From NCBI GenBank assembly GCA_027922465.2, contig BQMF02000174.1:310001-374000 (forward strand): 64,000 nucleotides of DNA, read 5' to 3'. The position numbers and the translations under genes are program-made. The first letter of the stretch is position 1. Each line of letters opens with the position of its first letter. This stretch comes from Turritopsis dohrnii. Lineage: Eukaryota > Cnidaria > Hydrozoa > Anthoathecata > Oceaniidae. Of this stretch, positions 11,433 through 62,444 are shown piece after piece. The notes below the pieces were generated by a model. The model did no database searches. It was given only the letters and a program-made list of their open reading frames with translations, and was not told the origin of the DNA.

Positions 11433-13148
11433 GTGGAGAAAGAGGACACTTATATGCTTCTTGTCCAAAAAATAAGAAATGAACTTTGTAATTATAAATG
11501 TAGTGAAGGAAAAGATAAAAATGTGAATGTCGTTGGAAATCTTAGGAAAAGTTCTTCGTTCTGGAAAAATACACTAAAAGCATCTTCTTACGTTCAAAGT
11601 ATAATCGAAAATGGCTATTTCATACCGTTTGAAGAAAAACCCCCAAGGTTTTATGCTAAGACCAAAATTTGTTGAGAAAGCTATTAATGAACTGTTAAGA
11701 AAAGGCTGTATTCAAGAAGTGTCAGAGCAACCTTATTGTTGTAATCCTTTAACCGTGGCCGAGAGGAATGGAAAACTACGACTTGTTATTGATTTGAGAC
11801 ACGTAAATAAATACATTAAGAAAAATAAATTCAAATATGAAGACCTAAAAACATTTACAGAAATGTTTGAAGAAGGCGACTATTTTACAAAATTTGATCT
11901 ATCATCGGGGTATCACCACATAGATATTCATCCAGAACATTATAAGTTTCTCGGTTTTTCCTGGACATTTTCGAATGGCATCACTAAATATTTTCAATTT
12001 GTCGTGTTACCTTTTGGGTTATCGTGGAGATCTTCTGATGTTCCAAGTATTGTATACATAGACGATGGGATAAACGGGGGTAATTCGTACAACCAAGCTC
12101 GAAAATTTGCAACGATCGTCCACCATGATTTAGAACAAGCAGGTTTCGTAGTTAACGTACAAAAAAGTGATTTCGAACCAAAACAGCGGGGAGAATGGTT
12201 GGGAACCGTCATTGATACTGAAACGATGACATTCACAATTCCTGAAAGAAAAACTAAGTAAGTTAAAGATAGTATCAATCTTATTACAAACGAAAAGTTT
12301 TCCAGCGCTCAACAATTGGCAAAAGTTGCAGGTCATCTATCGTCAATGCATCTTGCAATCGGCCCGTTAGTTCGATTATTTACAAGAAACATGTATCGCC
12401 GTATCGAGTCTCGATTAACTTGGTCTTTTCCTATAATCATAGATGACAAAACAAAAACTGAACTTGAATTTTGGCTTCACAACATAGATTTATATAATGA
12501 ATTATCTTACAAACCTAAGCCTGTGACATCCAAAATAGTTTTTACGGACGCCAGTGATGAAGGGTATGGTGGGTTTATCTGTGAGCGTCTCAGCCAAAAA
12601 ATCTGTTGTGGTAAATTCGAAGCATTTCAGAGAAAAAGACAAGTTCAACTGAAAGAGAACTTTTAGCTGTTAAACACGCACTGAAAGGTTTCGGTGAGCA
12701 ACTTCAAAATGAATCCGTTAAAGTCCACGTAGATAATTTCATCGTATCACGTATCTTATCTGTTGGCAGCTGTAAACCAAATTTACAAGACCATGCAATC
12801 GACATCTTTACATTTTGTTTAAAAAATAACATTAAATTACTAGCTGAATGGATACCACGAGAAAACAATACTATCGCTGATAGCCTTAGCCGTTTTAATG
12901 ACACTGATAATTGGGGAATTGATTTCAAAACATTTAGATTTCTTGATCGTTTGTATGGTCCTTTCACCGTGGATTGTTTCGCAGATCATCATAACAAGAA
13001 GTTAAAAAATTTCAATTCAAGATTTTATTGTCCAGGGACTTCAGCGGTAGATACTTTCACGGTTGGTTGGCAAGGCGAAAATAATTGGGTTTGTCCTCCT
13101 ATATCGTATATTGGATCAGTATTAAGACATTTGTCATCATGTTCATGA
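11433..13148 (+). pseudogene. DIRS-type reverse transcriptase / RNase H, broken
   Basis: The coding runs through several frames. 11433-11650 gives the region before the fingers (WKNTLKASSYVQSI). A frameshift near 11650 moves to 11611-12261, with INELLRKGCIQEV, KLRLVIDLRHVNKYI, FTKFDLSSGYHHIDI and the catalytic YIDDG box. Between VLPFGLS and YIDDG about 15 residues of the usual family are missing, an in-frame deletion. An in-frame stop follows at 12259. 12316-12666 carries the RNase H start (VFTDASDEGYGG). A frameshift near 12630 leads to the remainder (AVKHAL, HVDNFI, EWIPRENNTIADSLSRF) and a downstream conserved block (VDCFADHHN, FNSRFYCPGTSAVD). It encodes no functional enzyme as it stands. 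Confidence 0.75.
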
Positions 13149-25323: not shown

Positions 25324-28300
25324 TAAGCTCATTCCAAACAGTACATTGTTTCCTTTTCCAACCTGTTTATAATTGCTTCCTTTAATTCCATCTTCAAGTC
25401 TCTTCTAAATAAGTTGTACTAGAAACACTAACCCAAGTGATACCAGAAACCCAGGATATCAGTAAAACACAAGTTTTACCGGAAATACAAGACATTATTA
25501 TCGATGATTCAGTGATTTTATGTATCATCAATGTCTCTCATAAACATTTTTTGACATAATGGTTATCATTCTCCCTTACCCATTTACTTCAGACCTCATG
25601 GAAAGCTACAAAGTCTGAATAAGATTTTTTTACAGCAATTTTACTGTTTCACCCACCCTTTAATTTTGCACATCTAAGTGCGTAAAAATTAATGGAATTA
25701 AGGTATATTGAAATATGCTGCTACTATATATATTTAGTTCTCCTCCTTGTTCTTGCCCAAACTACCAGCAGAAAGATCCAAAATTCTGGCTGGTAACTTT
25801 GCAGATATGGTATACTGATTGAGTTTTGCTTTGTTTTTCTTTACCCTTAGATTGTCATATAATTGTCATATCAGCTTACAATGGTACTGATGCTTTAGAC
25901 TGTGGTGATGTCTTTGCACCTTGTGGTTCCTTTGGGTATGCAACTACGCTAGTCAATTCTGGTGATATCATCAAGTTTGATAACGTCAACAGTAATGAGC
26001 CTTACTTTATTAATGATTTAACTTTAAATAAATCAGTGGCTCTCAATGCTGTTTGCAGAAGTCGAAATCCTCCTGTGGTTTATGTTCAAGGCTCAGTAAA
26101 AGTGACAAATCCAGCTGACAGTTTTAACATTTCATATATAAAGTTTGTAAGCATCAAAGAAAATTTGTTTACAATCGATAGTTTTCCTGTAACTATAGAA
26201 TGCTGTTCATTCTATAATTTCACAAAAAATGTTTTCCAAGCTGCCACATTTGACAAACCTGTAAACCTTCATGTCAAAAATTCGACATTTGATGAATCAG
26301 CGATTTTTCTGATGACAATTTCTGGAAGCTTAGTATTTGAAAGATCCTTTTTCAGTGGTGATATACTTGTAGCAAATCAGTTCTTGAAAATACCCTGCAT
26401 GCAAACAGTTAGCGTTGTTGTGATAGATTGTATTTTCAGTAATTTGCTCTCTTTTGTTTTGAAAGGATGCTTGGATGTGACAGTTCAGTCTTCAAGATTT
26501 CTCAACATTCCACCAGAAAAACTGTATTTTTCAAGATTACAATCATTGAAGATTCAGTCTTCAACTTTTTTGCAGACATCAATAAGTATTTCAAATTCAG
26601 GAACAATAAAAATTGAAAAGTCAAGCTTCTCTAATAACACGGTTCCTTACAAAGGTGGTTCGTTGTATCTTGGCAGAAATCAATATGTACACATATCAGA
26701 TTGTCATTTTTACAATAACTCAGCGAACTATGGTGGTGCTATATTTTCTAATGGACCATTATATATAGCATTTTCAAACTTCACTTACAATCATGCCTTC
26801 TATTCAGGTGGTGCAATCTACTTCATGAACAATACCATAGAGGAGATTTTAGTTTTGTCGGGAATCTTTATGAAAAGTACTTCCAGATCAACTGGAAGCT
26901 TTGTAACTGTACTTGGAGATATAGAAGTTCTTGACAGTTTCCTTACTCTTGATTCAGTAAGGAATAACAGTCCTGATGTTAATGTTCTAAATTTTCAAAA
27001 TCCTGCTCACATTTTCTCTGCCACCAGACTAACAATCAATTGTCCTGTTGGCTATAATGTTCTTTATGCATTGGCTAAATTCAATAAATATTCTTCTATA
27101 ACATCCGTAGACTGTCAAAGGTGTGACAAAGGAAGTTACAGCCTTGAAAGAGGTTCATTCAAGATACGCTCTAGTGTTCCCATGCAAACTGATTTGAAGG
27201 TCCAAGATGCTAAATGTTATCCATGTCCTGCAGGTGGAAATTGTGCAAACAACATAATCAGCCGAGACAACTTTTGGGGTTACAGAAAATTAATGCATGA
27301 ATTGAAGGTTTTTACCTTGTCCAGCATCATACTGTTGCAGTTCAAAATCAAACAAATGTAAATTTCATAATACATGCAACTATTTTCGTGAGGGACCGCT
27401 ATGTGGTAGCATGTCAGAAGGGTTATGTTTTAAATTATTTTGGACAGAACTGTATGAAAGATAATGGTTGTGCTATATCATTGTTTTGGATAGTTGCTGT
27501 CTTCTATGCCATTCTGTACACTGCCATGGTTGCATATTTTCAAGAAATATCTGCTTTTATCAAAACACTGTTTCTAAACTGTTTTTCATTTCTGAATGTT
27601 AACCACTTTCATTCTTGCAAAGAAAACAGGTGGCATTCACATCAGTAGTGATGATATCCAACCTACAAATTATGACTTGGACTCGGAGCCTATGATATAT
27701 CACAGAGTTGTTTCCCACTCAAATGCAGACCAAGATCATAAGTCTTCCATTGGTGGAGTAAGAGTTAGTTTTGTTCTTCTTTTATCAAGTGGAATTTCTA
27801 TTACAAGTCAGTTCTGTTGATAAAATAAACATTGGATTGTTGCACAACCTTCTAAGAAATAATTTCAGCAACTTTCAACTTTCATATTCACAGCAAACTT
27901 TTCCAAACTTTGTCCACTGAAACACTTGACTGCTTCAACGAAGGAAGTTGTCACATTGGGGTTAATCATCATGATGCTTTTGCATTCTTTTCATCTATTT
28001 TACTGTAATCAAAGTCATCATGTTATGGACTAACAAATAAAGAAAGTCAAACAGAGTCGAACCACTATGGTACCCTTAAAAATAAACTAACCTCATATCA
28101 ATTACGAATAAAAGTGTGTTTTATACAGCTGATTTTGCTTAATTATACTGCAATATCAAGTGCTTCCTTTCGACTTCTTAATTGTGTTCAGATAGGGGAC
28201 AAGTCCGTCCTTTACACTGATGGAGCTGTTACTTGCTACACACCTATTGCAGTATGTCACTATCGTGTTTGTGACTTGTATGGATCGTACCATTTGCTCT

Positions 28301-34721: not shown

Positions 34722-37700
34722 ATGGGATTATGTTTTGTTTTAATGTTGTTTTTATCAATGCCGATGCCAAATGGTGAGATAAGCTGATGTTTCAGAAATA
34801 CCTCACAAGAGTGTGAAAATGCTTATCATTTTGATTCTGAAAATTAAGGCTCTAAAATATCTGAAACATTCTAGATAAAATATGACATTACAATTCAAGT
34901 TTAGCAATATGTTATCAGGTTTGTTGATCCTAGATACTAACTCATTTTTGTTATAACATCAAAGCAGATGATGGAAACATTCAACAACATATTTGCACAA
35001 GAAAAATTCCTTGTATCCCGAAAAATAAAAATTACTTTAACTTTTTGATCAAATTCCCTAAAACAGCATTAAGAAAGAGATGAAATAAATAACTAAAGTT
35101 CATCATTTTGCATGGGTATAACAGATGATTTAACGAGTTTTTTTTATCCTTTTTTTAGATTTTTTTCTTGTTGTTATATCAAGATATGATGGTAATGACA
35201 CTGTGAGTTGTGGTCGGCTGTTTTCACCATGTGCAAGCTTTGAGCATGCAATAAAAATGGCTCAATCTGGCAATATCGTAATGTTTGATAACGTCAACAC
35301 TAATGAGCCTTACTTTATTAATGATTCAACCATAAATAAATCAGTGGCTCTCGCTGCTGTTAACAAAAGTCGAAATCCTCCTGTGGTTTATGTTCAAGGC
35401 TCAGTTAAAGTGCCAAATCCAGCTGACAGTTTAAACATCTCACACATAAAGTTTGTAAGCATCAACAGTAACACGTTTAGATTTGACTGTTTACAAATTA
35501 GTGTAGATGACTGCTCATTTTATAACTTCACAAAAGATGTTTTTAGACCGACAAAGTATTATAACCCTGTATATCTTTACGTTAACAAATGTCTATTTGA
35601 AAAGTCTGATATCTCGCTCAACTTACATACAACAGGGGTACTGGAATTTAAACAGTCAGTTTTCAATGGTGGCATTTCAATCTCAAAAGCTCCATCCAGG
35701 GGAGGCCCGTGCAATGGCGTAGTAACAGTGACAATCGAGGATTCGTTTTTTAGTCAGTATTTATTATTAAGTGATTGCCTTGATGTGACCATAAACAATT
35801 CAATGTTTCTGAAAATTACGCAGGAAAGAATGAAATTTTCTCGAGTAGGAAAACTAATAATTCGGAATTCCAATTTTTCAGAAACATCAATCAGCATTAC
35901 TGGGTCACAAATGACATACATTGAAAAATCGATATTTTCTGATCACACAAGGTTTGGTAACGGTGGTTCATTGTCTTTAGTTGGAAATAAAATTGTGCTT
36001 ATATTGAACTGCGTTTTTTACAACAACACTGCAGGCATGGGTGGTGCAATATGGTCAAATGGCCCATTAAAAATTGCACTTTCTAAATTCATTGACAACC
36101 GTGCACTCTATTCCGGTGGCGCAATCTACTTCAAGAGGAACATTAACAGTGATAAACTAAGATTATCAAGAATCTTTATAAAGAGTACATCGACGTCATT
36201 TGGCAGTTTCTTGACAGCAAATGGACCTTTTGAATTTTTTGATAGCTTCCTATCTCTAGAAGATATCCAGAATAGTTATTCAGTCAACGTTTTGGATCTT
36301 CAAAATTCTTACAGGAATGTCCATGGCATCAACCTAAAAATTAAATGTCCCATTGGTTTTAAAACTACTTTTGTTTACAAAATTTATGCATTATCTTCCG
36401 TAGATTGTCAATTGTGTGAGAAAGGGACGTACAGCCTCCAAAGAGGTTTTCTAAAAATAAAATCCAGCAAACCTTTCCAATTAATCTACAACCGTTTACA
36501 TATCAAATGCTTTTCATGCCCAGCAGGTGGGATCTGTGAGCACAATATTGTCAGTCGAGATAACTTTTGGGGTTATAGGAGAACATTGAGTAATATAGCG
36601 TTTTTACCTTGTCCACCATCATATTGCTGCAGTTCAAACTCAGTCAAATGCAGATACTATAACACATGCAGCAATTTTCGTGAGGGAACGCTCTGTGGTA
36701 CATGCCAGAAGGGTTATGTTTTAAATTATTTTGGACAGACCTGCATGAAAGAAAATGGTTGTATTATATCATTGTTTTGGATAGCTGCTGTCATCTATGC
36801 CATCCTGTACACTGCAATGGTTGCATATTTTCAAGAAATATCAGCTTTTATCAAAACACTGTTCTCAAACTCTCTTTCATTCCCGAATATCAAACTGTCT
36901 CGCTCCCGTCATAGGGATTCTGATAATAATATACAAACTGACTATCATGAATTTCATGATGAAGAAACGATATGTGACACTGCTACAGCTCGTTCAAATC
37001 AAAACAATGGTCGCAAATCCACCATTGGTGGATTGAGAGTTGTTTTGTTTTTCTTCTACCAAGTCGAATTTCTATTGCAGGTCAGTTCTACCGACAAAGT
37101 AAAAGATGGTTTTTTGCAAAAACTTCATGAAATGGTTTCCAAAGCTTTTAACTTTCATATGTTTACTGCAAACGCGTACAAACTTTGTCCACTTAAAGGC
37201 TTGACTACTTTGACAAAAGAGGTTGTGACATTGGCATTAATCGTCATGATGTTTTGCATTGTTTTCATCTATTTTACTGTAATCAAAGTCATCATGTTAT
37301 GGATAACAAATAAAGAAAGTCAAACAGAATCGAACCACTATGGTACCCTTAGAAATAAAGTAACCTCATATCAATTACGAATAAAAGTGTGTTTTATACA
37401 GCTGATTTTGCTTAATTATACTGCAATATCAAGTGCTTCCTTTCGACTTCTTAATTGTGTTCAGATAGGGGACAAGTCAGTCCTTTACACTGATGGAGCT
37501 GTTATTTGCTGCACACCTTTGCAGTATGTAACTATCGCGTTTGTAACTATATGGATCGTACCATTTGCTCTTGTTCTACATCTGTCCACAATCATGCTTA
37601 AAGAAGGTGAAATCAATGTACAACAGTTCTGCACCTGTTTGGTATTTTCACCTCTTTGTTTATTTTTGGTATGTAAAGATGAAATATTCAAAGAGGTCTG

Positions 37701-38206
37701 ATGCTGATGAAAACTTTGTTTGTCACGAAAGTGAAGTTGTTCTTGATAATTTGCAAGGTCCTTACCGCTCTAGTTACCACACTGGATCATCCAGCAATCA
37801 CCACTGGGAATTGGTTATCATCATTCGACGTTTAATAGTATCGGCAGTTTCGACATTTTTCATTAATCCAATACAAAAGTTATTTGTTATGTTTCCAATA
37901 TTGATTGTTTTCTGGTTGCACAGTGCACATGTTTTACCATATCAAACAAAATGGATCAATTCACTGGAGCTGATTGTTTTATCACTACTCCTGTTCTTTA
38001 ATGGAACTAATATGTTTTGGTCGTTTGATTATATGATGGACTTGTCTGGTTTACCAGGGATTGAATTGATCGGGAGGATTTTGGCATGGTTAGAGGATAT
38101 CGTGTTGTCCATTCCAATAATTTTGATTCTTTTGATTTTAGTGTTTATGCTTTTTAAAGGATTTGTAACTTTTATTTGTTATTTGCTTCGAAAAAAGAGA
38201 GATTGA
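34722..38206 (+). CDS. Pmp-like beta-helix multipass membrane protein, copy 2 (one frame break near the 3' end)
   Basis: Exon 1 (34722-34773) encodes a signal peptide (MGLCFVLMLFLSMPMPN) and ends in phase 1 at GTGAGA. Exon 2 begins at 35159 after tttttttag and is open to 37701. The extracellular half is a right-handed beta-helix with Asn-rich repeats (NGGSLSLVGN, FYNNTAGMGGAIWSN, FIDNRALYSGGAIYF), then Cys-rich modules (CQLCEKGTYSLQRG, CFSCPAGGICEHNIVSRDNF, CGTCQKGYVLNYFGQTC). About five hydrophobic segments follow (ISLFWIAAVIYAILYTAMV; LALIVMMFCIVFIYFTVIKV; FIQLILLNYTAIS; ITIWIVPFAL-type). Relative to copy 1, two single bases are missing at about 37687-37700, so the frame moves to 37703-38206, which adds three more membrane segments and ends LLRKKRD. 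It may be a receptor or adhesion protein of the multicopy cnidarian family; function unknown. AATAAA at 38352. Confidence 0.75.
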
Positions 38207-46469: not shown

Positions 46470-47509
46470 ATTCGACCAAATACGTTTTCTTATTGACTTT
46501 AGGACACCCATGGTGGAGTAAAGTATTTAAAATACCCGTGTTTCTCCTCCTCCTCCTCCTCCTCCTACTACTACTCCAAGTAATGAACGTTTTCGTGCAG
46601 CGTTTACATGAAATCTTTGCCGAATTCGCAAACTTGGTCAAATTCGGACTTCCAGCTGACCAATTTTCATGAAATTTTGCACAGATCACAATTGAAAGGT
46701 GCTGATTTCAAATTTGACAATAATTTTGTCAGGTTTGACTAAAATTGGGCAATTTAGACCAAATTTCGAAAATTCTTCAATTTTCATGAAATTTTGCACT
46801 GGTCACAGTTGAAAGGCGCTGATTTCGAATTTGACAATGATTTTGCCAGGTTTCACTAAAATTGGGCAATTTCGGCCAAATTTGGGCCAAATTTCGAAAA
46901 TTCTTCAATTTTCATGAAATTTTGCACGGGTCACAATTGAAAGGTGCTGATTTCGAATTTGACAATGATTTTGCCAGGTTTGACTAAAATTGGGCAATTT
47001 AGGCCAAATTTGGGCCAGATTTCGAAAATTCTTCAATTTTCATGAAATTTTGCACGGGTCAAAATTGAAAGGTGCTGATTTCGAATTTGACAATGATTTT
47101 GCCAGGTTTGACTAAAATTGGGCAATTTAGGCCAAATTTGGGCCAAATTTCGAAAATTCTTCAATTTTCATGAAATTTTGCACGGGTCAAAATTGAAAGG
47201 TGCTGGTTTCGAATTTGACAATGGTTTTGCCAGGTTTGACTAAAATTGGGCAATTTAGGCCAAATTTGGGCCAAATTCCGAAAATTCTTCAATTTTCATG
47301 AAATTTTGCACGGGTCAAAATTGAAAGGTGCTGATTTCGAATTTGACAATGATTTTGCCAGGTTTGACTAAAATTGGGCAATTTAGGCCAAATTTGGGCC
47401 AAATTTCGAAAATTCTTCAATTTTCATGAAATTTTGCACGGGTCAAAATTGAAAGGTGCTGATTTCGAATTTGACAATGATTTTGCCAGGTTTGACTAAA
47501 ATTGGGCAA
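46470..47509. repeat. 128-bp satellite array, left part, with unique head
   Basis: Begins with the family head (ttgactttaggacacccatg ... ctcctcctcctcctc), then units whose ggtgctgattt word starts at 46701, 46818, 46946, 47074, 47202, 47330 and 47458. The spacing is 117 then 128 bp five times. Later units differ by only a few bases. Interrupted at 47514 by a RAG1-like transposon. Confidence 0.95.
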
Positions 47510-47513
47510 TTTA
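47510..47513. repeat. Left target duplication TTTA of RAG1-like element 1
   Basis: TTTA here and at 52289-52292. Neighbouring satellite units read gcaatttaggcc without the insert, so exactly these four bases are duplicated. Confidence 0.95.
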
Positions 47514-47966
47514 CACGGCTGTTTCGAACACTTAGTTTCGCGAAACTCAGACTGAGCATGCGCAATTTTCCGTTTCAAAATATGAGATTGTCTCCTTTGG
47601 CATTTCTGCTCCACCATCTGTGGGGATTTTAAGGGCCAAAAACTTACCCATAACTTAATATGAGAGACAAAATAAACCACCCACGATGGAGTTTATTGTG
47701 TACACTTTCCATAAAAAATATCATAGTAGTCAAATTTTAATGACAAGCCCGCGAATTTTACAATTTAGAAAAGCTCCTGAAAATCTGGGTGAATAACTAT
47801 TCCACTTCTTTGTAGTTTTTTGCAGACATCTGAAGTTTTGCCACAAGAGGAATAACAATACAGATTACAACATAATAATTATCTTTCCTTTAAATTTTAT
47901 TACACATTGCAAACATTTTTTTAAAAAAAGTTACGAAGCTTCAAAGTACAGCTATTTTCACCTGTC

Positions 47967-50900
47967 ATGGCGGACAACACCACACTTCACGAAATTGCTT
48001 TAGAAAAACTTTGTCGTGTTTGTGGAAATATGCTTTCCTACAGAGTAAAGTATGCTACATCAGAGCACATTAACAACCTTTGCTCAGCTTTCAATACAGA
48101 TTTCGCAAGAGATACAGTTAACATTCACCCCAAATATTTTTGCAACAACTGTCTAGCAAAAATGAATAACTTATTGAAACGTGGCTCCATTCACCAGTTA
48201 ATTCCTGTAGAATGGAAAGAGCACATCACAGACAACTGTGGCACGTGCGACTTATTTAAGAGCAAAGGAAAAGGTGGAAGACCCAGCAAAAGTCGAAAAA
48301 AAGGTCTCCCTATCAAACTCTTGAAAGTAGAACACAACTGGTCACCATCGTTAATCAACGAACTACATGTCATGTCGCCACAGCAACTTATTGATTTAAA
48401 CCTGACAGATTTTTCAATCTCAATCAACAATCATATCAGACCTTACATCTGCGAAATTTGCCAAGACTTGATCAAAAGGCCTTTGTATATTGTTAACTGC
48501 AACCATACTTTCTGTGGAGTTTGCCTAACATCACATTTAAAAACAGATAGCAATTGCCCTTCTTGCCACAATTATATTTCACCCAATATCAACTCGATAC
48601 AATCAGGACAAGTTCTTATTAACACCCTATTGATGCAGAATATAATGTGTTCCACTTGCAAAATTAATTTTTCAATAAATGGTTTCAAAGGTCACATTTG
48701 CAGAAAACCAGTCCTGACCACTAGTGACATTCTTAACATTAATCCCCATCAAGAAGTTCCTCAAGAGGTGATGGAGTGTATTACTCATGTTGTTGAAATT
48801 CAAATGGAGAAGTCGCAGTTACCTAACAATAGCATACAGCTTCCTACAAAAGGCTCTAAGGTAAAATACTTTACCATACTTAGACCAAAAAATCTAAAAC
48901 AAATCAGTTTTGTTGTGAATGTGAGTGTGTATATGCATGTTTTTTTAAAATAAAAAAACACATCTATACAAATAAGAAAATGACGTACAACAATACCATA
49001 AAAAAATAATTGATTTTCATGTCTGTAAACTATCCCAGTGGGCAAAAAGTCACTGCAGAGAAGTGCATTTGCTTTGAAATACTGTATAAACTTGTGCAAG
49101 ATAGACTCCACCACTTTGATTTTCAAAAAATATGCCCGCTGGGAAGGCAGTCCATGAACACAATATTTACTATTATATTTAATCTGCACAGATTTAAACA
49201 CTTATGTAATTCTTATAGCCACTGACGATGACACAGATTCGCATCCCTACGAAGCATTCAGATGTATCGAGCAGAAGAAGCGTGGAATGTAGGACAAAAA
49301 CAGCTAAAGAAGTGATGTCTATGATAGCTGGCCCCAGTAATGGTGCAATTTCAACCCAAACTACTGCAATTATTCAAAGTCTAGACAAAAATGAACGTGA
49401 AAATATTGTGAAAAAACTGAAAGTACAAGCTACCATCCCTCCACAGCATGTCGCTACAATGAAGTCGTCCCTCAATATTCCCTGGAATCAGTTTCGACAA
49501 ATTTCTCGTTGGTTGAATACTTTCAACGTCAAAATATCATCTGAAAAGGAGACTAGAAAAATTGCAACAGAATGGGTAGGGGCTGGTTTGAATGCTGAAT
49601 TAGCGCCATTAACTAAAACTAATGGCACAAAATTGGAAGTCATCCTTATTCCATGGGCCTATCTTTACAACTTGGTTGGTCATTGCCTCAAACGTGTGTC
49701 GCTGTTAGAAAAACGTCATCTTCTAGTGCAGCACAGTTTCATTAATATAAGTGAAATCCACATCAAAATAGGTGGAGACCATGGAGATAACAGCTTCAAG
49801 ATGGGTTATCAAATCGTAAATGTGAGAAATCCCAACAGGCCAGATAATACAGTCATATTTTCGATATTTGAAGCCAAAGACACCACCAGCAACCTGCGAA
49901 TATGCTTAAAACGGTTTAAAACACAAGTTGCAATGTTACAGAAAGCAAAGTTTCAGAACCAAAACTTCCGTGTGTTCATGTATGGCGATTATGCGTTTCT
50001 TTGTGCTATGTACGGATTGTCTGGTGCGAATGGTAAGTGTCCAATCTACAATAAAAAGCATAAATATCCCAAATCTGTACTAAATAACATATCTATAAAT
50101 ATCCCTCTACTGCATTATAACAATTTCAGGTCGTCATCCATGCTTGTGGTGTTTAGCGACACAGGAGGACATGCAGTCTCCGGCTTTTGCAAGAGGAAGT
50201 TTTGAGCCTCGGACCCTCGAAAACTTGAAAAATCACCATGAGGCCTATGTTTATGCAGGAAAAAACGTTAAGAATGCTAAAAATCATTTTAATGTAATTG
50301 AAGAGCAATTCTTTAATATACCACTTAATCAGGTAAAGTTTTGTTTAATATATAATTAAGAAGCATTTTAAATGAAGAAAAAATTAAGATGAGACTCACA
50401 TTATTCTTTAAAGGTTGCCATTCCGGGATTGCATCTTTCGTTGGGGATTTATGGAAAAATTTTCAACATGTTGGAAATGGAATGTCATTTGCTTGACATT
50501 GAAATGGCCACACTAAAATCAACAAATGTGCAGGGAACAAAAGACATAGAATATCAACTTTACATTGAAAAAAGAGCAGATCTGGAGGAAGCAAAGGAGG
50601 CAATAGTAGATGAGATCGATTTGATAAGAGAGGAACTGGGATATCACCTGATAGCTGGTGGAAGTCAAGATGTTGTTTCCACATATTATATTCCCAGAGT
50701 GAATGAGCTTGAATCTGAAAAGAACAAAATCGAAAATTCAATCAATGACCTTATCAAGAATTTACCAACTGGTTCTGGTCCGTGTGCTTTGTCTCTTGAT
50801 GCCAGTTTGCAGAAAATAAATATCGAAAGACAAGCATACCATGGCAAAAGCTTCATTGGGAATCATGTCCATAAGTTGCTAAAAGTAAGATATGATAAAT

Positions 50901-51626
50901 TGTTAATGATAGGACTCATTTCATAGAGAAGCTTGAGGTCAACTAAAAGTTTATAAGAAATTTTTTATTTTAGAAAGAAAATACCATACATATATGTAGT
51001 GGGATCATCAAAGCTGTTCAGAATCATACAGACGATGAACACATTCTTGAAAAAGCACAGGCAATGTGCGATAAATTTACAAAGTTAATCGAGAAGTATT
51101 CTGTTTGTGACAACATTTTCAATAGCTCCAGGGAGTTAAGTGCAAGTGAAATTGACTCCCTTGGTAAGAATAATTCTTTAAGAAAATTCACAAAATATTA
51201 CCACTGTTGTAATATATTTTTTATTTTCCTTTTTAGAAATTGCGATCAATTCATTTTTAAACTTTTTGCGACTGAACTGGCCTAAAATCAATATCAGTCC
51301 AAAGTTACATATTATAGAAGACCACGTCGTGCCATTTGTTAGACAATGGAAATCAGCTTGCGGAGTTTACGGTGAGCAAGGTGGGGAAAGTCTTCACCAT
51401 CAATTTAAGCAGATGAAAGCCAGGTGAATATTTCAACTCATTACTTATATACACGGAACACTATGAATTTTATCAAAGTTTCAAATGCATATTTAACCTT
51501 AGGTACGTAGGAGTGAAAGATCCAGTAAAACGTCTAGAATATACAATGAAACAGCATTTGCTAGCTTCATGTCCTGATGCACAAGTAATCAAACCAAAAG
51601 TGAAGAAAAGGAAACGAGAAGAATAG
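47967..51626 (+). CDS. RAG1L: RAG1-like transposase, 960 residues, seven exons, intact frame
   Basis: Exons 47967-48860, 49219-50032, 50130-50332, 50414-50884, 50974-51163, 51237-51423 and 51503-51626; all introns GT-AG and frame-consistent. N-terminal zinc region: LCRVCG (C16, C19), IHPKYFCNNC (H54, C59, C62), C91/C94, then a basic GGRPSK stretch. RING finger C162-x2-C165, C178, H180, C183-x2-C186, C197-x2-C200, followed by C228/C231, H243/C245. Core: GGDHGDNSFKMGY (D485 or D488), YGDYAFLC (D555) then HPCLWC (C574, C577), PGLHLSLG, KLHIIEDH (H882, H887) and YGEQGGESLHHQF (E904) with MKARY. These line up in order with RAG1 Asp600, Asp708, its CxxC and HxxxxH zinc ligands and Glu962 (SEGNES...MNAR). 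Expected to act in the nucleus, cutting at the element ends and, via RING, perhaps as a ubiquitin ligase. Confidence 0.9.
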
Positions 51627-52287
51627 TTTAGAATAGTTTCCTTAGGGGGACGAAAATTTTGTTAGAGTAGAACGTCAGAGTGAGTAATCGTATAAAAATC
51701 AGCGAATAACACTAAGTGAGGATGTTTTTTGATATTATAGCTAATCACTTAAATCAGAAGTAAATAATAGAGGTATTATTTATTCAGTTTTGACTTTACG
51801 CAACAACAAATCTTTAGTTTGTCACGGAATTTCATAGAATTGTATATATGAAAATCAGGAAAGTTTGAGATATTGTAAAAAGTTTAAAAAAAATGTTTGC
51901 ACTATACCTTTTGGAAATATCTTTTATTAGCCATCTAACTACCATACAACATCAGTCAAATCCATGAGAAAACTTTGAAAGTTGAAAAATTGACCCTCGT
52001 TTACCTTGACATAAATTTCAAGTCAGAAACAAACGATTAAAGTCATAGCCATGCCAAAGCCTTACGCTCGCTCCCTGAACCTTAGATTCCTGTAAGCGAA
52101 GAAATGTGAACATGTGGTGAATCGTTCTGATATATTTTGCAACCAGTGAAATGAGAGATTTTCCAAAATTGGAAATACAAACTTAGTACCTAGGAATGTA
52201 TAAAACCACGCGTGTTTCTACCATCTTTAAAAAAAGCCGTCGGACTTGGCGCATGCGTAAACTGAGTTTCGCTTCCGAAACAGCCGT
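51627..52287. other. 3' non-coding region of element 1, conserved in element 2
   Basis: The block around 51840-51990 (gaaagtttgagat, cataccttttggaaat) and 52180-52235 (acttagtacctagg, ccacgcgtg) recurs at 57350-57490 and 57685-57735 of element 2, although no frame is shared. Likely 3' UTR plus subterminal sequence. Confidence 0.6.
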
Positions 52288-52288
52288 G

Positions 52289-52872
52289 TTTAGGCCAAAT
52301 TTGGGCCAAATTTCGAAAATTCTTCAATTTTCATGAAATTTTGCACGGGTCACAGTTGAAAGGCGCTGATTTCGAATTTGACAATGGTTTTGCCAGGTTT
52401 CACTAAAATTGGGCAATTTAGGCCAAATTTGGACCAAATTTCGAAAATTCTTCAATTTTCATGAAATTTTGCACGGGTCAAAATTGAAAGGTGCTGATTT
52501 CGAATTTGACAATGGTTTTGCCAGGTTTGACTAAAATTGGGTAATTTAGGCCAAATTTGGGCCAAATTCCGAAAATTCTTCAATTTTCATGAAATTTTGC
52601 ACGGGTCAAAATTGAAAGGTGCTGATTTCGAATTTGACAATGATTTTGCCAGGTTTGACTAAAATTGGGCAATTTAGGCCAAATTTGGACCAAATTCCGA
52701 AAATTCTTCAATTTTCATGAAATTTTGCACCGGTCACAATTGAAAGGTGCTGATTTCGAATTTGACAATGGTTTTGCCAGATTTGACTAAAATTGGGCAA
52801 TTTAGGCCAAATTTGGACCAAATTTCGATAATTCTTCAATTTTCATGAAATTTTGCACGGGTCAAAATTGAA
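52289..52872. repeat. 128-bp satellite array, middle part between the two RAG1-like elements
   Basis: Right TTTA duplication of element 1 (52289-52292), then units at 52365, 52493, 52621 and 52749, spacing exactly 128 bp. Ends with TGAA (52869-52872), the left duplication of element 2. Confidence 0.95.
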
Positions 52873-55800
52873 CACGGCTGTTTCCGTAGCCTATAAATTG
52901 GAAAGTAAGACTGCGCATGCGTGACTTTTCTAAATCAAAACAAAATGCGTTCTCGTTTTCACTTTTGCTCTCCCCACCATGTGCTTTTTGAAAAGCCTAA
53001 ACCTAGTCTAAACACAATGTTAAATACAAATATAAGCACTAAGGTAGAGTTTCACAAGTACATTTTCAAAGTAGCTACTCATAGCAAACAAAATAATTTA
53101 TTTTTGGCGCGAATTTTAAATTTTAACAACATCACTGAAGATCCTAGTGGAGAACCTCGCCCATAGCAACCAGGTTTTCAAGCACTCTCAAAGTTTTAAC
53201 AACGAAAAGGTAAATACGACCAATATAACCAACAAATTACCTCACATTTTAGCAAAATTCTATGTTGCTAACATTTTTTAGAAAGAAGTTACAGCATCCC
53301 AAAGTTCAGCTATTTCAACCTAAAAATATGGCGGACAACACCTTCCACGAGCAGTGTTTAGGTAGACTATGCCGGATATGTGGACATATATTGTCAGATA
53401 GAGTCAAGCATGCAACAGAAAAGCACACGAGTGACTTATGTACTGCCTTTAAGGACGACTTTCACAACGATAAAGATGGAATACATCCCAAATTTTTCTG
53501 CAACAACTGCTTTGCAAAGATACAAAATTTTTTACAACGTGGATCCATACACACACAAACCCCTATTCACTGGCAAATACATACCAATGACAAGTGCAAG
53601 ACATGCAGTCTTTTCAAGGAGAAGGCTAAAGGAGGTCGTCCAAGTAAAAAAGGGAGAAGAGGCAGACCTATTAATTTACCTACACCAACAACATGGACTT
53701 CCATCATTAAGAATCTGCAACATTTATCACCCTCGCAAACTCATAACTTGACCCTCAAGGACTTTTCTATCACACACAACACTCATATAAAACCGTACAT
53801 ATGTGGGATATGTGAGGACCTGGTCAAAAAACCCCTGTATGTAGTGGCCTGTAATCACACATTTTGTGAAGTCTGTCTCACATCTCACTTACAAAAGGAG
53901 AGTAATTGTCCAACATGCAATATAAGTGTTCTGCCTGACGAAAAATCGATACAGTCAGGTCAAGTTCTCCTGAACACACTGATAATGCAGAAAATCTTTT
54001 GTCACTCATGCAACGCACATTTCAACATCGACCGTTTCAAAGGGCATTACTGCAACAAATCATCTGTTTTGACCACAAGTGATATCCTCAACTTAAGTTC
54101 TACAGAAGAAGTTCCGCGAGAGGTTTTGGAATGTGTGACCCACGTTGTTGGAATTCAGATGCAGAAATCAAAATTACCAAACAATAGCGTACAGCTACCA
54201 ACTAAGGGCTCTAAGGTAAATATAATCATACTTGGGTCAGAAATTAAAAACAAGCCAGTTTTTGTGTGAATGAAACACCATGTACATGCATGTTTTGTTG
54301 AAAACTTTTAAACTAATAAAAATAATTCCTCTGGGGGACCACACAAAATATATACAATAGCTAATAATCTATTACTGTATTTTAGCCCCTTACTATAACA
54401 CCGATTCGAGTCTCTACAAAGCATTCAAATGTGTCTAGCAGAAGAAGTATCCAGGCTAGGACCAAGACAACAAAAGAATTGCTGTCAATAATATCTGGTT
54501 CGTGTGAAGAGGCCATTTCAACTCAGACAGCTGCTGTTGTGCAAAGTCTTGATGAGAATCATCGCTCAAGCATTATAAAAAAATTGAAAGAACAGACAGT
54601 TATTCCAGCGGAACATGTTGCGGCAATGAAATCGTCATTGAACATACCCTGGAATCAACTACGCAGCATTTCACGATGGCTCAGTACATTTCAAGTCAAA
54701 GTGTCATCAGAAAAGCAAGTCAGGAAAACAGCAGCTGAATGGGTTGGACTGGTTTATATGCAGAACTTGCACCTTGCACAAAAACTAACAACAACAAAAT
54801 AGAAGTGGTACTTGTTCCGTGGGCATACCTATATAATTTAGTTGGACATTGCTTAAAAAGGATACACCAACTCGAAAAGTGTGATCTGCTTGTTCAGCAT
54901 ACTTTTATCGAAAAAAACGAGATCCATGTCAAAATAGGCGGTGACCATGGCGATAACAGTTTCAAAATGGGGTATCAAATTGTAAATGTCGATAAACCCA
55001 ATCGGCCAGATAACACCATAGTCTTTTCCATATTTGAAGCAAAGGACACCAGTAACAACTTGCGGACATGTTTAAAAAGATTTCAGCCACAAGTATCATT
55101 ATTACAGAAAACCAAGTTCCGAGACAAAGATTTGCGTGTCTTCATTTATGGTGATTATGCGTTTCTGTGTACCATGTACGGAATATCTGGTGCAAGTGGT
55201 AGGTGAAAAATCTAAAAAAACTGTAGTCTTCGATTATCATAATAGTGAAATTTCATAACTTTATCAATTCCAGGTCGCCATCCTTGTTTATGGTGTTTGA
55301 TCACGCACGATGAAATGCAATTCCCAGCATTCATTCGAGGAAAGTTAACATGCCGAACCTTACCCGACCTGAAAAAACATCATCAGGATTTTATGAATGC
55401 TGGAGGGAAAGTAAGGAATGCAAAGAAACATTTCAATGTTATAGAGAAATATTTTTTTGATGTGCCACTCAATCAAGTAAGTCTTACAACAAAGCTTTAT
55501 TTACTTTTAAATTTTAAGGATGTTGTGTACCTTACACTACATCTTAAAGACATTTTGGAAAAATGTTCACAACTGACTTTAATTAATAATACACAAAAAA
55601 CAACAACAACAAACACACACACACACACATAAAATTTGAACTTGAACATATTTTTCAAATTTCTCAAATGTTTTCTATCAGGTAGCGGTACCAGGATTGC
55701 ACCTTTCGTTAGGCATTTACCTGAAATTATTCAACATGTTGGAAAAGGAGTGCCACATGCTTGATATTGAATTGGCTGCAACAAAATCAATAAGACCAGT

Positions 55801-57802
55801 TGACTCGACTGATGCATATTCGAAGTTCTTAAAAGAACGAGAAGATCTAGAAGAAAAGAAAGCAATGGTGCTAGAAGAGATTGCTTCAGTAAAGGAAGAA
55901 TTAGGCTATCACCTAATTGCTGGAGGCAACCCTAATCTTGTCACCACTTATTACATACCTCAGGTTTGTAGGATTTGTAGTTTATATTATAGAGTTTATG
56001 ATTATATATTCATTTGTCTCGTTTTGATGCACGATTGACTTTTACCAATCCTTAAACCTTAGGTTGATGAACTGGAAGCTCAAATCGAAGAAATGGAAAA
56101 TTCCATAAATAAGTTAAATGAAAACTTACCAACTGGTGTTGGTCCATGTGCCTCATCCCTTGATGTTAGTCTGCAAATGATTAACATTCAAAGACAAGCG
56201 TACCATGGGAAGAGCTTCATTGGAAACCATGTACATAAACTGCTAAAAGTAAGATTTCAAAATGATGAACAAGGTTACATTGTTGAGGTTACTAGGTTAT
56301 GTGAATGTTCATTTTATTTTAGAAAGAAAATGCAACTCACTTATGTGATGGTATTATCAACGCCATAAAAAGTGAAACAAATGACGAGCTTATCAATCAA
56401 AAAGCAAAAGAAATGTGTGATAGATTTGCTAAATTGTTTGAAAAATATTCACTCTGCCATAATATCTTTAACAGCTCTGGTGAGTTAACTACCAGTGAAG
56501 TCAACAATCTGGGTAAGAGGAAATGTTTGTTTTAAATAATTGATTTCATGAGACTGGAAATTAATAAAATACATATTGCATTTTTAGAATTATCGATAAA
56601 TTTGTTCTTTCAATTTTTGCGTTTACACTGGCCTAATGTAAACATAAGTCCCAAGCTTCACATAATGGAAGACCATCTTGTGCCATTCATCAGAAAGTGG
56701 AAATCGGCTTTTGGGGTCTACGGTGAACAAGGTGGAGAGAGCTTACATCATCAGTTTAAACAAATGAAAGCAAGGTAAAGTCATAATGCAGAATTGTGTA
56801 CGATATTTCTTTTATTAATCAAAACAAATGAATAGTTTATCTTGTTTTCCAGATACAACGGAGTGAAAGACCCAGTTAAACGGTTGGAATACACCATGAA
56901 CCAACATTTATTGTCTTCATCTCCTGAAGCACAAATAATTAAGCCACAAAAGAAAAAAAGAAAGTTAGAAGAATAACAACTTCAAATTCAGTTGATCTGA
57001 TTTTTGTACAGTTAACATCTATCTAACTCTTATATGTTTATATTTTATTTATTTCTAATGTTTACCATTTGATAGTTACCATTTAATATATGACTGGCCT
57101 TAGAGTGTTTTATTCGACTCAGTTCTTATCTCAACAAATTGTGCAACACATTTAATTTGTTTTCACAACAACAAACATTTGTGAGTAAATTTTTGGAAAT
57201 CCAATGTCAGTGGAGCTAAATCATTGTATTTATGAAGCCTTATTATTCACAGGAAGAGTTCAGTTTACTACTTTTTCAAAACTAAACACAACTAGATCGT
57301 TTTTGTAAATATGTTTTTATGTAATCACGAGGTCAGTTTATGAAATGTATGAAAAATGAGAAAGTTTGAGATGTTACACTAACTTGAAAAAAAATGTTAG
57401 CACCATACCTTTTGGAAATGTTTTTCATTGACAACTGAATGTTCCAATAACATCTGTCGCGTCCATGGGAAAACTTCGAGAGTACTAAAAAATGTCTCAA
57501 ATCTAGGTTGTACACAGATCTCATAGCAAATTGGAAGTAAGAACTAAATATGCAATCCACAGCTTCGACGACCACTTCAGCCCGCTGAATTCTTTCGTGA
57601 TGAAAGAGTCAAACCATGTGGAAAACGTTCGGTTATAATTTGGATCCACTGAGTTGAGTATAAATGCCAAAAAAGGATATAGAACTTAGTACCTAGGGAA
57701 AATAAAAACACGCGTGGCTGACCGCCATTTTTAAAGCCGTAAATGAAAAACCGTCAAATGACACGCATGCGCAAACTGAGTTTCGCGTGCGAAACAGCCG
57801 TG
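52873..57802 (+). mobile_element. RAG1-like DNA transposon, element 2
   Basis: 4930 bp bounded by CACGGCTGTTTC and its reverse complement, flanked by TGAA on both sides (52869-52872, 57803-57806). The empty site reads aattgaaaggtg in other satellite units. Same orientation as element 1, 584 bp away. Inner motif GCATGCG lies at offset 43 on the left and 33 on the right, as in element 1. It carries a diverged copy of the same gene with one frameshift and one additional intron, so it is a separate subfamily member, not a recent duplicate. Confidence 0.92.
53328..56976 (+). pseudogene. RAG1L: RAG1-like transposase, second copy, one single-base frameshift
   Basis: Exons 53328-54215, 54386-55198, 55274-55476, 55682-55963, 56063-56248, 56323-56512, 56588-56774 and 56853-56976. 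The start is the MADNTFHE codon, aligned to element 1, although the frame is open up to 53262. N-terminal zinc region (LCRICG, IHPKFFCNNC, CKTC), basic GGRPSKKGRRGRP, RING (YICGICEDL, CNHTFCEVCL, CPTC), GGDHGDNSFKMGY, YGDYAFLC, PGLHLSLG, KLHIMEDH and YGEQGGESLHHQF are all kept. Exon 2 is 813 bp against 814 in element 1; one base is lost near 54747 after AAEWVG. With that base the total would be 958 codons. The intron 55964-56062 is absent from element 1. Everything else is open, so the break is either very recent or a sequencing error. Confidence 0.85.
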
Positions 57803-58205
57803 TGAAAGGTGCTGATTTCGAATTTGAGAATGATTTTGCCAGGTTTGACTAAAATTGGGCAATTTAGGCCAAATTTGGACCAAATTTCGAAAATTCTTCA
57901 ATTTTCATGAAATTTTGCACGGGTCAAAATTGAAAGGTGCTGATTTCGAATTTGACAATGATTTTGCCGGGTTTGACTAAAATTGGGCAATTTAGGCCAA
58001 ATTTGGACCAAATTTCGAAAGTTCTTTAATATTCATAAAAATTTGTGCAAAGCACAAATGGAAGATGTTGATTTTGAATTTGCCAGTCATTTTGTTAGAT
58101 TTGACCGTAATTTGGCAATTCGGCAAGTTTGTATTTTTGAAACCAGATATGTATTGTTGTGTTTTGTCCTGAAGTCTTCAAGCCAAGAGGCTTCTTGTTG
58201 TGTCT
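57803..58205. repeat. 128-bp satellite array, right end and tail
   Basis: Right TGAA duplication, then units at 57811 and 57939 (128 bp apart), one diverged unit (about 58040-58130) and the family tail with cctgaagtcttcaagccaag and aggcttcttgttgtg. Confidence 0.9.
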
Positions 58206-60224: not shown

Positions 60225-62444
60225 TTAGAGTTCTTCTTTTCCTTCTACATTTTCCATTTCATCTGTGACATTGATCAACCCGTCCAAGAAGTCGCCGTTT
60301 AATGCCACTCTTTTACTGCTAGTTTTTGAAGCGTTGTTCAATTCAACCTTGCGAATGCTCATAAAATGTTGGTCTCGGAAATAGAGGATATTGTTAGTCA
60401 AATCTTTGACGACAGCCCATCGCACTGGAGATCCACCACTACCTATTTCAATCAAACGTGAATAAATATAAGCGTGATTGGATTACATAAACTGAAAATC
60501 GTCGATCGGGATAAATATGATTCTATATGAAGAAATTTAAACATCTAATTCATTGACTTTAGGACACCCGTGGGGGAGTAAAGTCTTTAAAATAAGCGAG
60601 GATTTCTCCTTCTCCTATTACTTCAAGTTTTTTTGTGCCATGGTTACATAACATCGTTATCAAATTCTCAATTCGGGCGAAAATTCTTCAATTTTCATAA
60701 AGTTTTGCACAAAACCAATTGAAAAGTGTTGATTTCGAATTTGGTGGTCATTTTTCAGATTTGACCAAAATTTGGGGAGGTTCTTTACGAAACCTGAAAT
60801 CTTTAAGTCATGGACCTTCTTTTTTATATTTATATATTTGTAATAATGATATATTTAGTTCAACTAACCATTAGGAACACCTGATGCGTTCAGTATTTGC
60901 CATGCTTTATTTGCACCACTTTTAGCATCTTTTGGCTTTTCTCCAAACTGAACCAAGGCAGCCGTTCTGATGAAACGACTCGTTGTAGTGAAATCACCAG
61001 GCATACCAAGCCCGCCACTCGCTGAACCAAAACCTCCAAAACTTTCTTTTCCCTCTCCATTAATGTTATCATATTCTCTTTTAGGATGTCCTACACCTTG
61101 CAAATTAACATGATTGTGAAGATTAGTCATGTGCCAGTCGTATGGTGGTTGGTTTGTAAAAACGCCAATAGTATTTTCATGAATTTTGCGCCCTTCTTTG
61201 GTGTATTCTATCACCAACGCATTTCCTGATCTGTCAACAACACTCCAATGTAATGGGAAGATGTACTCCATCGTTTCACCCGGTTTTTCTGGATCGGGTA
61301 ATATAGATACTTCAGTCCAAACAAATGGAAACTCGTCATTGTCAATTGCAACGCGAATCTCTTGTGTGTTGCTATATCGAGCTAAATTAAGTTGGATTAT
61401 GCATACAATTTTGTGTTTAGCTCACATAAGCTCCTACTTGAAATTAAATACTAGTAGGAATAAACCATGAACACCAAGAGCGCTACTTATTGAATATTTC
61501 CCAGTCGGCAAAATCGACAAAAAGTCACTGTGACGGAGAGAATTTTTATTGAAATTGTGTGCATATTTATATAGAAATGCACACCTTCGCAGAGATTTCT
61601 TAACAAATGTGCTGACTGGGTGAAGATAAGAACATGAGGTCATCTCATCGAGTGTGAGATGTTTTTAAACATGCGTGATACTTACACAACATAAACTCTG
61701 AAAGTTGCAGGTGTGACAGTGCGTTTCCGCATTTTGTTACCGGAATCTCACTTGCGCTGGGATATTTTGCATAACCTTGGAAATACAGAACACCAACTGA
61801 TAAGCCATCAGCGTTTTGTCCATCCATAATTCCTCTCGGAAGATAATTTTCGTTAGGTGTAATGAATGACATTGCGTTTTTGGAGTGCCATCTTAGTAGT
61901 GTGTTCCCATAACAACTTGATCCAGAAGGAAAAGGATGAGCTTGAAAGAGAGTTCGTTCTGGTGCAGTTCGCACATCATACTTGAAATCGAAACCAAACA
62001 TATTTGTGCGTCCAACGAGTATTGTCCTGTCTTCTGTTGGAAGGACAAACTCTGTACATGCATAAGTACACTGTACCATGCAATACATGACAACGATCAC
62101 AGCAACGAAGATCTAAAAATAGAACATAACATAATTTTATTTCTATGTGTTTTATTTCCGTTTGCTAATTGAACCGGTACAGATAGCCAATATCAATATA
62201 GGACAGCTGTGATAGGTGCCTCAACGTTGGAGCATAACCTTTCTGATAAGTAAATTGGATCGAAGTAATCGGAAACAGATGGCCTCTCCGATACAGTTTT
62301 CGGATCACACCGATAACTGTACAGCTGTCTAGTGGAAACTAGATTTTTGAAGATTTCTGCAATAGAACTATATACTATCAACACTTATTTTTGCAACCTT
62401 CTCTTATGATAAATAAAACATAGAGAAAAAAGTTTAACCTTCAT
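60225..62444 (-). CDS. Secreted choloylglycine hydrolase / penicillin-V-acylase-like Ntn hydrolase
   Basis: Minus-strand exons 62439-62444 (only ATG AAG), 61686-62112, 60869-61381 and 60225-60442; all GT-AG and in frame, 387 residues. Residues 1-20 (MKIFVAVIVVMYCMVQCTYA) are a signal peptide; cleavage after Ala20 would leave Cys21 of CTEF as the new N-terminus, the nucleophile position of this family. Other family marks: LVGRTNMFGFDF, NADGLSVGVLYF, NALVIEY, FTNQPPYDWHMTNL (conserved Asn) and SRFIRTAAL (conserved Arg). Enzymes of this family cut amide bonds of conjugated bile acids, penicillin V or N-acyl amides; a secreted or lysosomal amidase is inferred, substrate unknown. Intron 3 (60443-60868) carries a satellite-family repeat. 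Confidence 0.88.
60548..60840. repeat. Satellite-family member in intron 3 of the hydrolase gene
   Basis: Starts with the head cattgactttaggacacccg and tttctccttctcctatt, then a single degenerate unit (ttttgcacaaaaccaattga, gtgttgatttcgaatttgg), and ends with a shortened tail. Same order as in the array at 46470-58205. Confidence 0.65.

Follow-up and report, generated by a model that had tools for sequence, protein, structure and literature searches.

The question raised by this locus is to which lineage a transposon belongs when a single gene joins the N-terminal region of RAG1 to a DDE transposase core. The DNA analysed, here called the window, is a stretch of 64,000 nt from Turritopsis dohrnii, and an earlier note on it had read the element at 47514–52288 as RAG1-like. 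We put a probability of about 93% on this element (copy 1) being an autonomous cut-and-paste transposon of the Chapaev group (CACTA–Mirage–Chapaev–Transib lineage), of a sub-type with the RAG1-shared Chapa domain and a RING finger, the assignment being made by DUF1280, TSD, ends and motifs, with Chapaev members compared by their published description. Chapaev transposons combining Chapa and RING are said to go back to Kapitonov and Jurka in 2007.

Copy 1 is a complete transposon of 4775 bp on the plus strand, with the TIR CACGGCTGTTTC exact at its left and right termini. Both it and a second copy sit inside one 128-bp satellite array (46751–58045), which they split into the segments 46751–47513, 52289–52872, and 57803–58045, entering it at different phases. 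Because copy 1 lies in this satellite, the TSDs can be tested cleanly against empty sites: the flanks were joined, one TSD was removed, and the resulting 36-base string was sought in the array. The joined flanks of copy 1 occur at four places in the array with no mismatches and at 11 with two at most, and those of copy 2 at six and nine places, respectively. The TSD is exactly 4 bp, not 5, in both copies: TTTA for copy 1 (47510–47513 and 52289–52292, from comparison of the flanking sequence) and TGAA for copy 2 (52869–52872 and 57803–57806). All four ends carry CAC...GTG termini. The exact TIRs and 4-bp TSD, the empty satellite units, and the open frame bear out the view that this is an apparently intact single-gene transposon. 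The earlier note had mentioned neither the second, frameshifted copy nor the 4-bp TSDs and empty sites, nor the offset of the inner end blocks described below.

Copy 2 (52873–57802, plus strand, 4930 bp) belongs to the same family and has the same termini as copy 1, and a protein search of the whole window found these two copies only. A 1-bp difference in exon 2 breaks its frame, and the exon 4 region seems to hold an additional intron.

The transposase gene of copy 1 has seven exons, all on the plus strand, GT-AG introns, and a single stop-free frame of 960 aa; splicing the exons reproduced the coordinates, exon number, and protein length given previously. Exon 1 (47967–48860) encodes the RAG1-type N-terminal (Chapa) zinc domain (48012–48248), a GGRPSK basic motif, a C3HC4 RING finger (residues 162–200, 48450–48566), and a C2HC finger (residues 228–245); the residues of the N-terminal zinc region are C16xxC19, H54...C59xxC62, and C91xxC94. 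The core starts in exon 2 (49219–50032), which carries D485 (49777–49779) with D488, D555 (49987–49989), and the DUF1280 match. Exon 3 (50130–50332) contributes C574xxC577, exon 4 (50414–50884) the LH motif and a stretch that aligns with the long helices in a model of the sponge relative P0008, and exon 5 (50974–51163) leads to exon 6 (51237–51423) with H882x4H887, E904, and E908; exon 7 (51503–51626) includes the stop codon. Read from the sequence, the core thus shows DDE with C(2)C, LH, and H(4)H motifs, and all the elements claimed before, from the N-terminal zinc region and RING to Glu904, are present and in order. To these we add E908 as a second candidate: both glutamates are kept in relatives that reach that far, and either may be the catalytic residue. 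D485 and D555 are 70 residues apart; the corresponding distance in RAG1 is 108 residues.

The GGRPSK motif (48273–48290), which resembles an AT hook, comes after the third CxxC and before the RING, and copy 2 also has RRGRPI. In the profile alignment, mouse RAG1 has GGRPR at positions 389–393, after its RING.

No RAG2L partner was seen on either side of the transposase gene, where no stop-free stretch exceeds 56 codons, nor on the minus strand, where eight of the nine overlapping ORFs of at least 60 aa were scanned and gave no Pfam match up to E 0.1; the ninth, outside that scan, straddles the left end of the element.

Exon-by-exon alignment of the two copies gave 65–78% DNA identity, and 625 of 948 aligned residues are identical. 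Over these 948 codons, pN is 0.196 and pS is 0.788 (pN/pS 0.25), calculated from nine pieces that cover nearly all of the coding region, the short stretch at the copy 2 frameshift being left out. The frame of copy 2 is open within all nine pieces, and pN is below pS in each of them (0.241 and 0.805 in the RING exon). Synonymous change is saturated, indicating that the frame has been under selection for a long time. Purifying selection between the copies would also be expected of a domesticated host gene, a reading to which we give next to no weight and which we reject, since there are two TIR/TSD-bounded insertions at different satellite phases, one of them frameshifted. As a Chapaev-group transposon, copy 1 has an intact sequence and is possibly active; copy 2 is broken.

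Relatives of the protein were found in one named sponge. A first protein search gave five, two of them labelled Ephydatia muelleri, and a profile search, which scored only the 7999 candidates sharing most words, gave 85, each of which has Ephydatia muelleri as its label or an Em name from EukProt that we take to mean the same sponge; as the databases seem poor in animals, absence from others carries little weight. A viral-contig scan matched 39 stretches, none of which is a relative. Parts of the N-terminal zinc region, RING, and core are combined in several of the Ephydatia gene models, many of which are incomplete, so that this layout also exists outside the window: in P0001 the zinc region and RING are followed by an incomplete core, and in P0006 only the later part of the zinc region precedes RING and core.

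These models bear on whether the two halves of the protein belong together. An N-terminal gene like N-RAG-TP of Aplysia, which a passage of a review describes as composed entirely of RAG1 N-terminal-like sequence, might have come to lie beside an unrelated transposase by chance or artefact; the whole RAG1-like N-terminus is indeed in exon 1, with an intron between it and the core. However, in each copy exons 1 and 2 meet in phase 0, the intron between them beginning with GT and ending with AG; each element encloses the two parts within the same TIRs, and the sponge models join them as well. We reject a chance join as highly improbable. The element shares with N-RAG-TP a RAG1-like N-terminus in a mobile element but differs in having a core in the same frame.

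Comparison with RAG1 and Transib profiles, which the earlier note had proposed, gave different answers for the N-terminus and the core. The Pfam scan of the window protein matched PF12560 and RING; no model named Chapa is among the matches, and the Chapa domain is therefore identified through RAG1. With the RING excluded, a profile of relatives matches the RAG1 N-terminus with E 8.2e-12. The window protein alone finds as its best solved structures other RING proteins (COP1, E 6e-8) and reaches RAG1 through the RING only (E 0.0013), so the N-terminal match needs the profile of relatives. In NCBIfam, exon 1 matched rad18, via the RING, far below the cut-off, exon 2 gave one chance-level match, and P0008 matched no family.

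The core, on the other hand, matches PF06918/DUF1280 (E 2.8e-13; 50.5 bits against a cut-off of 25), and the 14 families that the window protein matches with E up to 1 do not include the RAG1 core profile PF12940. Among the best 60 of the 152 matches to a profile of 26 relatives, alignment with RAG1 is confined to the N-terminal/RING part, reaching profile position 363 of 924 at most, and neither the RAG1 catalytic part nor HzTransib appears; homology of the core to RAG1 thus rests on fold and literature. As to fold, the predicted core of P0008, a relative of 820 aa that lacks the N-terminal zinc domain, is nearest to RAG1/RAGL/Transib. Judged from the model of this sponge relative, the core of the window protein seems to be RAG1-folded; the fold match cannot separate Chapaev from RAG1L/Transib, because no Chapaev structure is among the fold matches listed.

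The N-terminal homology and this predicted fold are what would favour membership of the RAG1L/Transib lineage, that is, a "TransibVDJ"-like element with N-terminal domain, RING, and RAG1 core but no RAG2L. Against it stand DUF1280 in place of PF12940, the restriction of the 26-relative profile matches noted above, and a TSD of 4 bp, not 5. We consider this membership very unlikely and reject it on TSD length and PF12940. What stands of the original reading is the RAG1-like N-terminus joined to a DDE core; the RAG1-like or Transib identity does not.

The Chapaev-group assignment is in good agreement with published descriptions. DUF1280 is the Chapaev transposase in a passage of PMC3985635, and passages of PMC4079192 give generally 3–4 bp TSDs, CAC...GTG termini, and a DDE transposase with C(2)C, LH, and H(4)H motifs as Chapaev features. 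Chapaevs with the Chapa domain, followed by RING in two subgroups, are mentioned in part of Kapitonov and Koonin 2015 (PMC4411706), which also describes Transib as lacking the RAG1 N-terminal region. The element shares with Chapaev the DUF1280 core, ends, 3–4 bp TSD, Chapa, RING, and a single protein with no RAG2L found; since these passages describe Chapa and RING Chapaevs with the same hallmarks, it is of an already known kind. With RAG1/RAGL (ProtoRAG) it shares the succession of N-terminal zinc region, RING, and a further zinc finger, DDE with CxxC and HxxxxH, and the core fold predicted for P0008, but differs in having no PF12940 match, a 4-bp rather than a 5-bp TSD, and no RAG2L found. 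RAGL, RAG, and Transib mostly have 5-bp TSDs, and RAG1L–RAG2L pairs were found in three cnidarians, according to a passage of PMC7204232. Unlike Transib, with its 5-bp TSD, the element has the N-terminal region and a 4-bp TSD.

The ends of the element are bipartite and unequal, a feature without mention in the Chapaev passages. Each consists of a shared terminal block of 12–13 bp, in copy 1 CACGGCTGTTTCG at 47514–47526 (plus strand) and its counterpart at 52276–52288 (minus strand), followed by an inner block (GCGAAACTCAG...GCATGCGC in copy 1). In both copies, counting from the tip, the left inner block begins with nt 27 and the right one with nt 17, a difference of exactly 10 bp; the blocks lie at 47540–47563 (plus strand) and 52249–52272 (minus strand) in copy 1 and at 52899–52922 (left) and 57763–57786 (right) in copy 2, the borders having been chosen by us from two copies only.

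We compared left and right ends at offsets from −25 to +25, against 2000 shuffles of the right end that kept base composition but not dinucleotides. Within each copy, the best offset was +10, with 20 of 25 bases matching (next best, 13 and 12), and none of the 2000 shuffles reached this value in either copy. The same offset was found between the left end of copy 1 and the right end of copy 2 (21/25 bases; 0/2000 shuffles) and between the left end of copy 2 and the right end of copy 1 (17/25 bases; 16/2000 shuffles). The left spacers of the two copies are equal in length and agree at 3 of 13 bases; for the inner blocks, 18 of 24 bases agree on the left and 22 of 24 on the right. As the copies share ancestry, the offset counts as one event retained, not two.

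In that the spacer keeps its length while its sequence drifts, and in the difference of about one turn of the helix between the ends, the arrangement is reminiscent of 12/23 signals, although its spacers do not measure 12 and 23. Asymmetry of the 12/23 kind is ascribed, outside V(D)J recombination, to some Transibs only, and a 27/31 arrangement to amphioxus ProtoRAG (passages of PMC8355894), and invertebrate RAGL is expected to be rather insensitive to asymmetry (passage of PMC7204232). The passages of PMC4079192 on Chapaev make no mention of asymmetry, spacer, subterminal, or TIR; the bipartite unequal ends are possibly new.

The Chapa/RAG1 N-terminal zinc domain weakly resembles Drosophila ZAD dimerisation domains: the profile match is weak (E 0.014), zf-AD is matched, also weakly, in three of seven members, and ZAD gives the top fold matches of an N-terminal model that is itself poor (mean pLDDT 54). 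For this model, Foldseek gave no match with E up to 0.001, and VIA-align gave ZAD, RING, U-box, and spliceosome entries, with no RAG1 among the 50 matches listed, an absence that is not evidence. A literature search linking RAG1 and ZAD found no paper, and the likeness of the RAG1 N-terminal domain to insect ZAD is possibly new.

The following mechanism can be proposed. Host splicing would yield one 960-aa transposase, which may dimerise via Chapa/RING and bind the terminal and inner end blocks. Cleavage at CAC would be the work of the putative D485/D555/E904-or-E908 site, with a CxxC/HxxxxH zinc site in support, and joining of the ends to target strands 4 bp apart would produce the 4-bp TSDs. 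Like that of RAG1, the RING may have ubiquitin ligase activity directed at its own protein. A tentative and rather doubtful extension is that the ends are functional asymmetric signals (a fixed CAC block with an inner block one helical turn farther on one side), paired long with short under a 12/23-like rule, and that Chapa is a ZAD-type dimerisation domain.

Elsewhere in the window, two similar-looking long ORFs (25823–27361 and 35134–37701) have weak PMP-repeat matches; the latter, of 855 aa, has 12 relatives, the sole named metazoan being Hydractinia (31% identity over 73%). At 11605–13148, fragments of reverse transcriptase and RNase H, together with a weak Dam-methylase match, probably represent the remains of a retroelement, and minus-strand ORFs at 60864–62112 match choloylglycine hydrolase (CBAH), one strongly and one just below the curated cut-off.

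Taken together, the locus provides an intact, selected transposase that joins the RAG1 N-terminus to a RAG1-type core fold, as modelled in a relative, outside the RAG1/Transib branch, in line with the old union of N-terminus and core proposed in 2015 (Kapitonov and Koonin 2015, PMC4411706). What the RING and the RAG1 N-terminus do in a transposon can be studied in it, and with its unequal ends the question of how asymmetric signal pairing arose can be put to the test in a system other than RAG. If the doubtful extension, with functional asymmetric signals and Chapa as a ZAD-type dimerisation domain, were true, both the pairing of unequal ends and the RAG1 front end would predate the RAG/Transib branch or have originated twice.
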